DNA of 64,000 nt, from the NCBI RefSeq assembly GCF_002205845.1, contig NZ_NISI01000001.1:992001-1056000 (forward strand), given 5' to 3'. The DNA comes from Roseateles puraquae. Lineage in GTDB: Bacteria; Pseudomonadota; Gammaproteobacteria; Burkholderiales; Burkholderiaceae_C. Below the pieces are notes generated by a model. The model saw only the letters and a list, made by a program, of their open reading frames with translations. It did no database searches and was not told the origin of the DNA. The position numbers and the translations under genes are program-made. This document shows, piece after piece, positions 21,445-47,744 of the stretch (its first letter is position 1; every line of letters starts with the position of its first letter).

Positions 21445-22538
21445 TGACGGGGGCGTTGCAGGTCTACGCCGGCCCGGCCGCCCGCGCGCGCCTGGCTGAG
21501 CGCGGCCTGCGCGCCGAGGACATCGGGCTCATTCCGGCCGCGGCGGGCGGGCCGAAAGGTCTGGCGCTCAATGGGCTGGACCGCCATCTGTTCGGTGACT
21601 GGCTGGCGCGCAGTTCGCACAAGATCCATCTGGTGGGCGCCAGCATCGGCGCCTGGCGGATGGCGACCGCCGCGCTCGCGCATCGCGGCGTGGCGCATGC
21701 CTTCGAGGTGATGGCCGAGGCCTACGTCACCCAGGAATACGACGTGCTGCCGGGCGAAAAGCGCCCGCGGCCCGAGGGCGTGAGCCGGCGCTTCGGCGAG
21801 ATCCTGGCGGAGATCTTCGAGGGCCGCGAGGCCGAGGTGCTGGCGCACCCACGCTGGCGGCTGCACATCGTCACCTCGCGGGGCCAGCACAAGGGCCTGG
21901 GGCTGCTCGCGCGCGAGGGCCGGCTGCGCACGCCGCTGGGCTACCTGGGCGCGTTCGCGGCGAATGCGGTGTCGCGTCCGCTGCTCGGGCGCTTCCTGGA
22001 GCGGGTGATCTTCTCGGACCCGCGCGACCGCCTGCCGCTGACGCTGAACGATTTCACCAGCCGCGAGGTGCACCTCTCGCGTGCCAACCTGCGCGGCGCC
22101 CTGCTGGCAAGCTGCTCCATCCCGTTCTGGCTGCAGGCCCAGCACGACCTGCCCGGTGCGCCGCGCGGCGCTTACTGGGACGGCGGCATCACCGATTACC
22201 ACCTGCACCTGGACTACCGCGCGCTGCAGGCCAGCGGCGCACCGCTGGTGCTGTACCCGCATTTCCAGCGCCAGGTCGTCCCTGGCTGGCTCGACAAGGC
22301 GCTCAAGCACCGCCACCGCGCGACCGCCTTCCTCGACAACGTCGTGCTGCTGTGCCCGTCGCCCGAATGGATCGCGGCCCTGCCCGGAGCCAAACTGCCC
22401 GACCGCAACGATTTCATCCACCTCGACGCCGAGGAACGCCGCCGCCGCTGGCGCATCGCGGTGGCCGAGAGCCAGCGCCTGGCCGACGATTTCGCCACGT
22501 TGACCGCGCGCGACAGCCTGCAGGCGCTGAGCCTTTAG
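21444..22538 (+). CDS. patatin-like phospholipase family protein
   Basis: This 364-residue protein starts in a TGATG overlap with the receptor gene. It has the patatin oxyanion-type loop AAAGGPKGLAL, the nucleophile elbow GASIGAW (GxSxG) and the DGG catalytic-Asp motif in YWDGGITDYH, so the Ser-Asp dyad appears intact. Patatin-type enzymes hydrolyse acyl esters of phospholipids. No signal peptide is seen, so it is probably cytoplasmic or membrane-associated. Coupling with a TonB receptor is unexplained. A possible promoter for thrS (TAGAAT at 22536-22541) overlaps its end. Confidence 0.85.
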   Translation: MTGALQVYAGPAARARLAERGLRAEDIGLIPAAAGGPKGLALNGLDRHLFGDWLARSSHKIHLVGASIGAWRMATAALAHRGVAHAFEVMAEAYVTQEYDVLPGEKRPRPEGVSRRFGEILAEIFEGREAEVLAHPRWRLHIVTSRGQHKGLGLLAREGRLRTPLGYLGAFAANAVSRPLLGRFLERVIFSDPRDRLPLTLNDFTSREVHLSRANLRGALLASCSIPFWLQAQHDLPGAPRGAYWDGGITDYHLHLDYRALQASGAPLVLYPHFQRQVVPGWLDKALKHRHRATAFLDNVVLLCPSPEWIAALPGAKLPDRNDFIHLDAEERRRRWRIAVAESQRLADDFATLTARDSLQALSL

Positions 22539-22584
22539 AATCTCGGCTCCCTCCCCTCACAAGAGCGAGAAAGGCACCCTGGTT

Positions 22585-22623
22585 ATGACACCGCGAACTA
22601 CGACCACCTTCACCGGTACCTAG
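22585..22623 (+). CDS. threonine-rich leader peptide of thrS
   Basis: This 12-codon frame (ATG ... TAG) reads [12 protein letters not shown], with seven threonines in twelve residues, four of them consecutive (22597-22608). AAAGG about 10 nt upstream can serve as the ribosome-binding site. It is followed by alternative RNA hairpins ending in an intrinsic terminator just before thrS, the layout of ribosome-mediated transcription attenuation. Stalling on Thr codons when charged tRNA-Thr is scarce would favour read-through into thrS. The frame is seen directly, and its translation is inferred. Confidence 0.8.
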
Positions 22624-22626
22624 TCG

Positions 22627-22688
22627 GCCGCGGCTCGTCACGCCTGCCTTCGGGCAAGAACAAAGCGCGGCAAGTGGCCGCGCTTTTT
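22627..22688 (+). promoter_or_regulatory. thrS transcription attenuator (antiterminator and terminator)
   Basis: The terminator is a perfect 10-bp stem AAAGCGCGGC (22662-22671) / GCCGCGCTTT (22677-22686), loop AAGTG, ending in five T. The alternative pairing is GCCGCG (22627-22632) with CGCGGC (22666-22671), which would take the left arm of the terminator, with a small TGCC-TTCG-GGCA hairpin (22645-22656) enclosed. The 5' antiterminator strand starts 4 nt after the leader stop codon. A ribosome at the stop would cover it, while one stalled on the Thr run would leave it free. Confidence 0.78.
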
Positions 22689-22715
22689 GTTTTCTGCCCC
22701 ACGAACGGAGCACCC

Positions 22716-24623
22716 ATGATCTCGATTCAACTCCCCGACGGCTCGCGCCGTGAGTACCCCGCCCCGCTGACGGTCGGCGACGTGGCCGCCAGCATCGGCG
22801 CCGGCCTGGCCAAGGCCGCGCTGGGCGGCAAGGTGGACGGCAAGCTCGTCGACCTGAGCCATGTCATCGACAAGGACGCCAGCCTGGCCATCGTCACCGA
22901 CAAGGACGCCGACGGCCTGGACATGATCCGCCACTCGACGGCTCACTTGCTGGCCTATGCCGTCAAGGAGCTCTACCCCGACGCCCAGGTCACGATCGGC
23001 CCGGTCATCGACAACGGCTTCTATTACGACTTCTCCTACAAGCGCCCCTTCACGCCCGAAGACCTGGCCGCCATCGAGTCCAAGATGACCGAGCTCGCCA
23101 AGAAGGACGAGAAGGTCGTGCGCCGCGTGCTGCCGCGTGACGAAGCCGTGGCCCACTTCAAGGCCCTGGGCGAGCATTACAAGGCCGAGATCATCGGCAG
23201 CATCCCCGCGGGGGAAGACGTCTCGCTGTATGCCGAAGGCAAGTTCGAAGACCTCTGCCGCGGCCCGCACGTGCCGTCCACCGGCAAGCTCAAGCACTTC
23301 AAGCTGATGAAGGTGGCCGGCGCCTACTGGCGCGGCGACCATCGCAACGAGATGCTGCAGCGCGTCTACGGCACGGCCTGGGCCAGCAAGGACGACCTGC
23401 AGAAGTACCTGACGCTGCTGGAAGAAGCCGAGAAACGCGACCACCGCAAGCTCGGCAAGGAACTCGACCTCTTCCACATCGACGAACATGCCCCGGGCGT
23501 GGTCTTCTGGCACCCCAAGGGCTGGACGGTGTGGCAGGAAGTGGAGCAGTACATGCGCCGCGTGTACCGCGACAACGGCTACCTGGAGGTCAAGGGCCCG
23601 CAGATCCTGGACAAGGGCCTGTGGGAAAAGACCGGCCACTGGGACAAGTACCGCGAGAACATGTTCGTGACCGAGTCGGAGAAGCGCGACTACGCGCTCA
23701 AGCCGATGAACTGCCCCGGCCACATCCTGATCTTCAAGCAGGGCGTGAAGAGCTACCGCGACCTGCCGCTGCGCTACGGCGAGTTCGGCCAGTGCCACCG
23801 CAACGAGCCCTCGGGCGGCCTGCACGGCATCATGCGCGTGCGCGGCTTCACGCAGGACGATGGCCACATCTTCTGCACGGAAGACCAGATCCAGGGTGAA
23901 GTCACCGCGTTCACGACGCTGCTGCAGAAGGTCTACAAGGACTTCGGCTTCACCGACATCATCTACAAGCTCTCCACGCGCCCCGAAAAGCGCATCGGCA
24001 CCGAAGAGAGCTGGGACAAGGCCGAAGCCGCGCTGGCCGAAGGCCTGAAGGCCTCGGGCTGCGACTTCACCTACCTGCCCGGCGAAGGTGCCTTCTACGG
24101 CCCTAAGATCGAGTACACGCTCAAGGACGCCCTCGGCCGTGAATGGCAGTGCGGCACCATCCAGGTCGACCCCAATCTGCCGGAGCGCCTGGACGCCGAC
24201 TTCGTCGACGAGAACGGTGAGCACAAGCGCCCGCTGATGCTGCACCGCGCCATCGTCGGCAGCCTGGAGCGTTTCATCGGCATCCTGATCGAGCAGCACG
24301 CCGGCGCCCTGCCCACCTGGCTGGCGCCGACGCAGGTCGTGGTGGCCAATATCACGGACGCGCAGGCCGATTACGTGGCGGAAATTGTGAAATCGCTGCA
24401 AAAACAAGGGCTTAGGGCCTCGGCTGATTTGCGCAACGAGAAGATCACCTATAAAATCCGTCAGCATTCCATGCAAAAGCTGCCGTACATCCTCGTCGTG
24501 GGTGACAAGGAAAAGGCGAATGGCAGCGTTGCGGTCCGCGCCCGTGGCAACCAGGATCTCGGCGTGATGCCTCTGCAGGACTTCCTCGACAGGATCTCCG
24601 CAGACATCACCAACAAGGTCTGA
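22716..24623 (+). CDS. thrS: threonyl-tRNA synthetase
   Basis: This 635-residue class II synthetase has all its parts: an N-terminal TGS domain, the editing domain with [12 protein letters not shown], and the catalytic core with [11 protein letters not shown] (Zn ligand Cys) and [27 protein letters not shown]. The anticodon-binding domain is near the end ([24 protein letters not shown]). It charges tRNA-Thr. ATG 22716 is chosen because an upstream in-frame start at 22674 lies inside the terminator hairpin. Regulation by the leader peptide at 22585-22623 is indicated. Confidence 0.97.
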
Positions 24624-24691: not shown

Positions 24692-25237
24692 ATCGCTACG
24701 TTTGCCGACCGTCGTGCGATTCCGGAGCGCAAGCACCGGTTGAACCGCGAAATCATGGCTCCCGAAGTCCGTCTGAACGGCCCCGAGAACGAACCCATCG
24801 GGATCGTCAGCATCCAGGAAGCCCTGCGCATGGCGGGCGATCTGGATGTGGACCTGGTTGAGATCTCCGCCACCGCCAATCCGCCGGTCTGCCGGCTGAT
24901 GGACTACGGCAAGTTCAAGTACCAGGAGCAAAAGCGCGCTGCCGAAGCCAAGGCCAAGCAGAAGATCATCGAAATCAAGGAAGTCAAGTTCCGCCCGGGC
25001 ACGGACGAAGGCGACTACCAGATCAAGATGCGCAATCTGCGCCGCTTCATCGCCGAAGACGGCGACAAGGGCAAGGTGACGCTGCGCTACCGGGGCCGTG
25101 AGATCACCCACCAGGAAATCGGCATGCGCCTCCTGGAGCGGATCCGCGATGAACTGGCCGATGTGGCGGTGGTCGAGAACATGCCGAAGCTAGAAGGTCG
25201 GCAGATGATCATGGTCCTGGCGCCCAAGAAGCGCTGA
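24692..25237 (+). CDS. infC: translation initiation factor IF-3, starting at ATC
   Basis: The 181-residue product has the IF-3 N-domain ([25 protein letters not shown]), the linker ([14 protein letters not shown]) and the C-domain ([24 protein letters not shown]). The first ATG-like frame starts inside the conserved N-domain, so the true start must lie upstream. ATC 24692, with AAAGG upstream, is the best candidate and follows the rule that infC uses a rare start codon. IF-3 rejects non-canonical starts, so this start gives autoregulation. The in-frame ATT at 24719 is the alternative. Confidence 0.93.
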
Positions 25238-25987: not shown

Positions 25988-26010
25988 GGGCCGGCCCACT
26001 GGGTCGGCCC
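25988..26010 (+). terminator. probable terminator or attenuating hairpin between rplT and pheS
   Basis: GGGCCG (25988-25993) pairs with CGGCCC (26005-26010), extended by CCC/GGG inside, followed by TTCTTCATTT. It may end the rplT transcript partly. I found no Phe-rich leader peptide ahead of it, so a pheM-type attenuator is not supported. Confidence 0.55.
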
Positions 26011-26032
26011 TTCTTCATTTCCGAATTCCCGA

Positions 26033-27076
26033 ATGTCTGATCTCGACGCTTTGCTGCAGGCGGCCCAAGCCGACTTTGCCGCCGCCCCGACGCCCGCCGA
26101 ACTCGAAAACGCCAAGGCCAAGTACATCGGCAAGACGGGCCGCGTGACCGAGCTGATGAAGGGCCTCGGCGCCTTGAGCATCGAGGAAAAGAAGACCCGC
26201 GGCGCCGAGATCAACCAATGCAAGGTGGCCATCGAGGCTGCCCTCAATGCCCGCCGCGAGGCGCTGGCTGCTGCCGAGCTGGAGAAGCAGCTCAAGGCCG
26301 AGGCGCTCGACGTCACCCTGCCCGGCCGCCAGCGCGGCACCGGTGCCCTGCACCCCATCACGCGCGCCATGGAGCGCATCGAGGCCATCTTCTCGTCGAT
26401 GGGCTTCGACGTCGCCGACGGCCCGGAGATCGAGACCGATTGGTACAGCTTCTCGGCCCTGAACAACCCCGAGAATCATCCGGCCCGCTCGATGCAGGAC
26501 ACGTTCTACGTCGACATGAAGGACGAGAACGGCGCCTGGCTCAACCTGCGCCCGCACACCAGCCCGATGCAGATCCGCTACGCGCAGGCCCACGCCAAGC
26601 GCTACGCCGGTCAGGACACGATGCCGGAGATCCGCGTCATCGCCCCAGGTCGCACCTACCGTGTGGACAGTGACGCCACGCACTCCCCCATGTTCCACCA
26701 GGTCGAAGGCCTGTGGGTCGGCGAGAACATCTCGTTCAAGGACCTGAAGGCGGTCTACCTGAACTTCATCACGGCCTTCTTCGAGACTGACCAACTGCAG
26801 CTGCGCTTCCGCCCCAGCTACTTCCCGTTCACCGAGCCCAGCGCCGAGATCGACATCATGTTCGAGAGCGGGCCGCTCAAGGGCCGCTGGCTGGAAGTCT
26901 CGGGCTCGGGTCAGGTGCATCCGCAAGTGATCCGCAACATGGGCCTCGACCCCGAGCGCTACATCGGCTTCGCCTTCGGCTCCGGCATCGACCGCCTGGC
27001 CATGCTGCGCTACGGCGTCAATGACCTGCGTGCCTTCTTCGACGGCGACCTGCGTTTCCTGGCGCAGTTCCGCTGA
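26033..27076 (+). CDS. pheS: phenylalanyl-tRNA synthetase alpha subunit
   Basis: This is a 347-residue class II synthetase subunit. An N-terminal coiled-coil tRNA-binding arm (about 1-85) precedes the catalytic core with [34 protein letters not shown]-like [10 protein letters not shown], and the C-terminal motif 3 [17 protein letters not shown]. It forms an alpha2-beta2 tetramer with PheT, encoded 45 bp downstream. Confidence 0.97.
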
Positions 27077-45571: not shown

Positions 45572-45663
45572 GCGCCCCTCGCGCACCCCCGAAAGAACCG
45601 CCACGCCAGCCCGTCAGGGAAACGGGTTTTCGGGAGCTAACCTAGGCGCGACGAAAGCTAACT

Positions 45664-47504: not shown

Positions 47505-47580
47505 TGGTGGGCCCTGTAGGATTCGAACCTACGACCAACGGATTAAGAGTCCGCTGCTCTACCAACTGAGCTAAGAGCCC
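47505..47580 (-). tRNA. tRNA-Lys (anticodon CTT)
   Basis: This 76-nt cloverleaf has CCA encoded and acceptor arms GGGCTCT / AGGGCCC with one T-G pair. The anticodon loop ACTCTTAA gives CTT. The T loop is TTCGAAT. It is followed by a minus-strand terminator. Confidence 0.95.
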
Positions 47581-47668: not shown

Positions 47669-47744
47669 TGGTGGGATGTGCAGGATTCGAACCTGCGACC
47701 AACGGATTAAAAGTCCGCTGCTCTACCGACTGAGCTAACATCCC
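47669..47744 (-). tRNA. tRNA-Lys (anticodon TTT)
   Basis: This 76-nt tRNA has CCA encoded, with the anticodon loop ACTTTTAA giving TTT. The D arm and T arm are canonical. It lies 88 bp upstream of tRNA-Lys(CTT) on the same strand, and the two are probably cotranscribed. Confidence 0.96.

Follow-up and report, generated by a model that had tools for sequence, protein, structure and literature searches.

A Thr-rich leader peptide, competing stems and an intrinsic terminator make up the attenuator of the thr operon, and thrS genes of Gram-positive bacteria are under textbook T-box control. Lopatovskaya et al. 2010 (Mol Biol 44:128) reportedly deal with attenuation in operons for amino acids and aminoacyl-tRNAs. 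Among the papers listed in our literature searches, we found no description of a peptide-leader attenuator before a betaproteobacterial thrS gene, and that article and Vitreschak et al. 2004 may already predict it; none is described in the portions of PMC4833913 and PMC10272879 used here. Other aminoacyl-tRNA synthetase genes are likewise under peptide-leader attenuation, namely pheST in gammaproteobacteria and trpS and leuS in Streptomyces (relevant passages of PMC1262725); these serve other amino acids and are likened to the present case by mechanism alone. In Streptomyces lividans TK24, a candidate leader termed thrL (MKRVRPFLETTPGFVPAR) precedes thrS, as here, yet it has two Thr of 18 residues, lies on a leaderless transcript and belongs to a distant phylum, and the passage that presents it terms its termination unclear (PMC8079986). 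In E. coli, ThrRS binds hairpins in thrS mRNA and blocks the ribosome (section on this operator in PMC3858243), and the portion of PMC2965389 on premature terminators that was drawn on mentions threonyl-tRNA synthetase a single time, with reference to E. coli. The mechanism considered below is already known; its interest lies in a wide but patchy distribution before thrS.

The window, the whole stretch of 64,000 nucleotides analysed from Roseateles puraquae, holds a predicted element of this kind. While the attenuator of the thr operon controls threonine biosynthesis genes, the element in the window precedes a tRNA synthetase gene. This gene, thrS, encodes a 635-residue protein that scored 734.2 bits with TIGR00418 (cut-off, 383.65). 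Direct reading of the sequence upstream gives a candidate leader frame, ATG ACA CCG CGA ACT ACG ACC ACC TTC ACC GGT ACC TAG, in which seven of 12 codons (ACA, ACT, ACG and four ACC, at positions 2, 5-8, 10 and 12) specify Thr and which ends at 22621-22623. Between leader and thrS lies an intrinsic terminator with a perfect 10-bp stem, a 5-nt loop and a T-rich tail (-17.4 kcal/mol), whose stem ends 29 nt before thrS. When folding started at the leader stop and ran as far as the terminator loop, with the 3′ arm of the terminator excluded, six pairs formed between 22627-22632 and 22666-22671, and the same fold added pairs between 22634-22635 and 22664-22665. This pairing of segments 2 and 3 overlaps the terminator arm and is mutually exclusive with the terminator; in the window alone, it is not significant. 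The initial annotation had proposed a Thr-rich 12-codon leader, a perfect terminator and a competing pairing, and all three were recovered, the pairing exactly as proposed. The probable ribosome-binding region of the leader may also pair with the stretch 3′ of the leader stop (Table 1).

Table 1. Features of the thrS leader region and the adjoining genes, in window coordinates
Feature	Coordinates	Strand	Basis
Putative -10 hexamer, TAGAAT, which shares bases with the stop codon of the frame upstream	22536..22541	+	Sequence only
Probable ribosome-binding region of the leader, GCGAGAAAGG	22565..22574	+	Block conserved between families
Leader peptide gene, core ATGACACCGCGAACTAC, segment 1 inside the core	22585..22623	+	Sequence, species comparison
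Segment 2, partner of segment 1 (protector) or segment 3 (antiterminator)	22627..22635	+	Fold; 2:3 co-evolution
Segment 3, part of the terminator 5′ arm, antiterminator partner of segment 2	22664..22671	+	Fold; 2:3 co-evolution
Intrinsic terminator (stem 22662-22686) and T-rich tail	22662..22692	+	Scan, fold, equivalent hairpins in relatives
thrS, threonine--tRNA ligase, the predicted controlled gene (ATG at 22716)	22716..24623	+	TIGR00418
infC (IF-3), next gene after thrS	24740..25237	+	TIGR00168

No Rfam family reached its gathering score at the thrS leader. The Thr_leader family (RF00506) scored 20.9 bits (E of 0.12 in a 401-base search), below its gathering score of 55; a likeness nevertheless exists, as its model aligned end to end (1-118 of 118) at 22576-22694. 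Membership in Thr_leader, a T-box and an operator of the E. coli type were each considered as candidate identities and were not supported by the Rfam scores and by the search for anticodon-arm mimics, which gave none above chance.

Judged from the sequence, the element very probably controls thrS as a ribosome-mediated (peptide-leader) transcription attenuator, with charged tRNA-Thr as the signal sensed. For this element, we infer leader translation, ribosome stalling, termination, antitermination and a response to threonine. With sufficient charged tRNA-Thr, the ribosome would reach the leader stop and cover segment 2, which starts 4 nt farther on; segments 3 and 4 would then form the terminator, and thrS would not be transcribed. 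With scarce charged tRNA-Thr, the ribosome would stall at the Thr codons and cover segment 1, leaving segment 2 free for segment 3; once these two were paired, no terminator would form and thrS would be made. If the leader were not translated, segment 1 and the ribosome-binding region would pair with segment 2, and the terminator would form.

The leader frame stands out in the window itself. Thr makes up half or more of the residues in only one of 392 ATG frames of 8 to 25 residues on both strands, the thrS leader. In 60 windows of 64 kb simulated with a second-order Markov model, no frame had at least seven Thr in 14 or fewer residues. The fold of the whole leader was moderately better than that of shuffled sequences (z of -1.89; 6 of 200 as good). 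The hairpin alone is not significant: a loose terminator scan of 2 kb gave one hit, and shuffled sequences gave 1.1 on average. Likewise, the antiterminator stretch folded no better than shuffles (z of 0.28; 114/200), and the 2:3 duplex was no better than with a shuffled segment 2 (z of -0.58). Since none of these three tests reached significance in the window, the case rests on species comparison.

Such a comparison across Burkholderiales, which the initial annotation had proposed, was carried out with 140 regions upstream of thrS. Eighty loci were taken from named genomes; one (L039) lacked upstream sequence, and the remaining 79 together with the window gave 80 upstream regions. Sixty further regions formed an order sample out of 250 Burkholderiales genomes and were chosen partly for having hits. 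Searching the 80 regions by motif gave PRT- or RTTT-type leaders in 52. Leader and perfect-stem terminator occurred together in 94 of 140 loci (52/80 for the named genomes with the window; 42/60 for the order sample), and they were present in 13 of the 20 families of the 60-locus sample; the other seven families, each represented by one genome, gave no such combination. Hosts with the leader include Acidovorax, Comamonas, Rhodoferax, Roseateles, Massilia, Janthinobacterium, Ralstonia, Cupriavidus, Burkholderia, Paraburkholderia, Achromobacter and Bordetella. Under the scan rule, 46 of the 140 loci gave no leader with terminator. The rule missed leaders recognizable by eye at L132 and L133 (ATGAGACCGCCGACTAC...), and at L023, L025 and L071 a leader is present where the terminator rule failed. 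At L027, the leader start codon is changed to ATA, and one frame counted as a leader (L060, MPQFRTCLQIP) is probably due to chance.

A scan blind to the core, which called for an ATG frame of 8 to 20 residues with at least four Thr and a terminator 10 to 70 nt farther on, found this arrangement before thrS in 36 of 80 loci and in 18 of 60 from the order sample. Sixteen amino acids were tested in this way; the next best after Thr was Arg, with 3/80 and 5/60. In other families of the class, no thrS locus of 40 (from the 84 found beyond the family of the window) passed, and one had a frame with at least three Thr. The 17-base leader core, GTTATGACACCGCGAAC, was found exactly in 28 of 250 Burkholderiales genomes, including that of the window, and in 8 of 50 families. 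All 28 exact matches precede thrS: at least 23 lie 100 to 196 bases before it by coordinates, and the other five were placed by tblastn. All eight genomes of the window's family carry the core with at most one mismatch. The genome of the window has one exact match, at thrS, and 15 matches with three mismatches compared with 19 for a reversed control pattern. Among 184 genomes of the class, an exact 15-mer of the core was found in one genome besides two of the window's own family, and not at thrS; of eight class genomes fetched for a one-mismatch core, none had the match at thrS by tblastn. No Thr leader was seen before the homoserine dehydrogenase gene of the same genome, which lies closely behind an upstream frame.

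The best reading of these comparisons is that the predicted attenuator has been kept in many families of Burkholderiales, where leader frame, Thr codons, terminator and co-evolving antiterminator recur. The initial annotation had called the element unusual for a proteobacterium. Set against the textbook cases of E. coli and Gram-positive bacteria this holds, but within Burkholderiales the element is common. Close relatives without the frame or the stems had been put forward as evidence against an attenuator; such losses are seen in only part of the relatives, for example at the Limnohabitans-like loci. By eye, four of these loci (L004, L007, L029 and L033) have TAAAAT and, about 30 nt on, a GC-rich terminator-like hairpin right before thrS, with no leader.

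The antiterminator also co-evolves. Segment 2 varies between families, and segment 3 varies in step with it, both by eye and by fold: the pair reads TCGAGG/CCTCGA in Burkholderia, GCTAGTCG/CGGCTAGT in Massilia and GCCGCG/CGCGGC in the window. In 91 of the 94 loci (duplicates removed), native 2:3 pairs averaged -13.79 kcal/mol compared with -12.16 kcal/mol for species-swapped pairs (z of -6.9), and none of 5,000 permutations was as good. The same held when segment 2 was cut to its first 25 to 28 nt in 82 loci, those with short flanks having also been left out (z of -7.5; 0/5000) and for 37 cluster representatives with segment 2 cut (z of -4.3; 0/5000). Per locus, the effect was modest: compared with dinucleotide-shuffled segment 2, the mean z was -1.32, and 30 of 91 loci were at 5/100 or better. 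Of five control pairings, four gave no such signal: with segment 3, the pre-leader region (z of +2.9), the variable part of the leader (+1.8) and the post-terminator region (+0.3), and with segment 2, the post-terminator region (+1.5). The pre-leader region with segment 2, intended as a control, was positive (z of -3.6, 3/5000; representatives, z of -2.2, 77/5000). After the fact, this signal would fit a protector helix over the ribosome-binding region of the leader.

The protector hairpin between segments 1 and 2 is weakly supported by the sequences. Native 1:2 helices were no better than swapped ones (z of -0.7, 1221/5000) in a test of low power, as segment 1 hardly varies. Compared with shuffled segment 2, the mean z was -0.72, with 7 of 37 representatives positive (control, 0.21 and 0/37). 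In an aligned subgroup picked for its segment 2 motif (18 of 22 rows), 157 of 179 cells were paired, against at most 76 when the alignment was slid, and few of the pairs vary. Of the protector and antiterminator scheme first put forward, the 2:3 stem is well supported and the 1:2 stem weakly.

What recurs in the leader is a short core, ACA CCG CGA AC[T/G]. Of the 94 loci, 74 have ACA, 82 CCG and 84 CGA at these positions; the last codon is ACT in 80 and ACG in 14. Among 87 distinct leaders, Thr occurred at core+2 in 50, at core+3 in 45 and at core+4 in 17, and at core+8 in 2 of 67; Thr at core+1 is present by selection of the leaders. The view of the leader as Thr-rich holds in that Thr codons recur, but in having so long a Thr run the window is at the rich end of the range, and some leaders have two Thr codons only (e.g., MTPRTFLLKR). 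The core codons are scarce in neighboring genes: thrS of the window has no ACA or ACT among 28 Thr codons and no CGA among 36 Arg codons, and infC, pheS and pheT together have one ACA, two ACT and two CGA. This scarcity fits a sensitive attenuator.

The GTT before the leader ATG, like the wobble bases of the core, is conserved between families: G occupies -3 in 78 of 94 loci, and T occupies -1 in 76 and -2 in 76. Both this GTT and the fixed wobble bases exceed what Thr codons need. Conceivably, the TTATGA at the leader start could pair with the initiator tRNA loop. The CGA-ACT pair is kept despite changed start codons and preceding residues (e.g., MFFPLARTTT and MQRTSTKT). We tentatively suggest, as a possibility with the odds against it, that the core GGTTATGACACCGCGAACTAC could be a composite stall site in which rare codons for Arg and then Thr follow each other, or else a second recognition site, and that leaders with two Thr codons would still sense charged tRNA-Thr. 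In seven loci (L110, L111, L112, L114 and L129-L131), MTPLT replaces MTPRT through a change of CGA to CTG, and the adjoining bases are unchanged.

Other explanations of the region were weighed against attenuation. The terminator might be constitutive or partial and the small frame unregulated, so that thrS would be expressed at a fixed level and the frame would merely couple translation to transcription. Terminator-like hairpins do occur before thrS without the leader: they lie within 170 nt of thrS in 33 of the 46 loci that gave no leader with terminator (0.8 in shuffles) and, without a Thr leader, in 15 of 40 loci from other families of the class (L163-L202; 1.1 in shuffles). Hairpins before thrS are therefore not special to Burkholderiales. 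Some of the leaderless hairpins may end an upstream transcript, and those of the other families may do so or serve another control. The enrichment of Thr, and of no other amino acid, speaks against an unregulated frame, however, and the co-evolving antiterminator speaks against a fixed terminator; we regard this explanation as improbable. The reversed logic, in which CCGCG of the core pairs with the terminator 5′ arm as the antiterminator and a stalled ribosome causes termination, is very unlikely. Such a pairing can form in the window (-9.8 kcal/mol), but native pairs were no better than swapped ones (z of -0.1, 2323/5000; a test of low power, as the core hardly varies), and thrS would be shut off when it is needed.

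Two further alternatives invoke direct recognition of thrS leader RNA. T-boxes, in which uncharged tRNA-Thr binds the leader RNA itself, are used by Gram-positive thrS genes, but no T-box reached the gathering score in the window and none was among the six matches up to an E value of 10 in 22400-22800, which makes this reading hardly credible. ThrRS might instead act on a tRNA-Thr-like operator in the thrS leader, with the small frame incidental. Repression by ThrRS on hairpins at the ribosome-binding site is described for E. coli thrS (passage in PMC3858243), feedback control of thrS would be common to both systems, and a core fixed beyond the needs of its codons could be a protein site. On the other hand, hairpins like the tRNA-Thr anticodon arm occurred in 1 of 92 leaders compared with 0.8 in shuffles, and the window had none (strict pattern, no positive control); a loose pattern matched 20 of 92 leaders compared with 17.1 in shuffles. 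The operator, moreover, leaves Thr in the frame unexplained, and we give it little chance, as little as the reversed logic.

A consensus scan of 21500-23500 found no promoter. The TAGAAT hexamer that overlaps the upstream stop codon is a possible -10 element, and relatives that lack a tRNA gene upstream show TAAAAT, TAGAAT or TACAAT, by eye, at about the same position. In other loci of the Ralstonia, Cupriavidus, Burkholderia and Massilia type (L021, L046, L056, L062 and others), a tRNA gene precedes the leader; its anticodon loop reads GAC by eye (valine). The tRNA, the leader and thrS may share one transcript at these loci. In Table 2 of PMC9045368, the mapped thrS start of Cupriavidus metallidurans CH34 has an RpoD motif and carries the tag Rmet_R0015; the format of this tag suggests an RNA gene. 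This start fits the tRNA gene before the leader in loci of the Cupriavidus, Burkholderia and Massilia type. In the same table, infC and rpmI have mapped starts of their own, so genes downstream of thrS need not be under the attenuator. In the window, read-through from thrS might possibly reach infC, and pheS follows farther downstream, at 26033. Just before pheS, at 25988-26019, there is a 10-bp inverted repeat, GGGCCGGCCC ACT GGGTCGGCCC, with one G-T pair and a T-rich tail; it stands after another inverted repeat, and no Phe-rich leader frame was seen by eye. Elsewhere in the window, a match to int-alpA RNA (45586-45652) and two nearby tRNA genes (47508-47580 and 47672-47744), all on the minus strand, suggest an integrated element.

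If the element is a peptide-leader attenuator as proposed, it would be a third solution for the control of thrS, besides translational autoregulation, of which E. coli thrS is the textbook case, and T-boxes in Gram-positive bacteria. The spread of the attenuator, present in many families within one large order and absent from others, would offer a natural series for studying how such a switch arises and decays. Annotation of regions upstream of thrS would gain an RNA family, and the attenuator would predict how these bacteria respond to threonine starvation and to ThrRS inhibitors. Should the tentative reading of the core also be true, Burkholderiales would have an attenuator family of their own, in which a fixed RNA core is combined with a fast-changing antiterminator.
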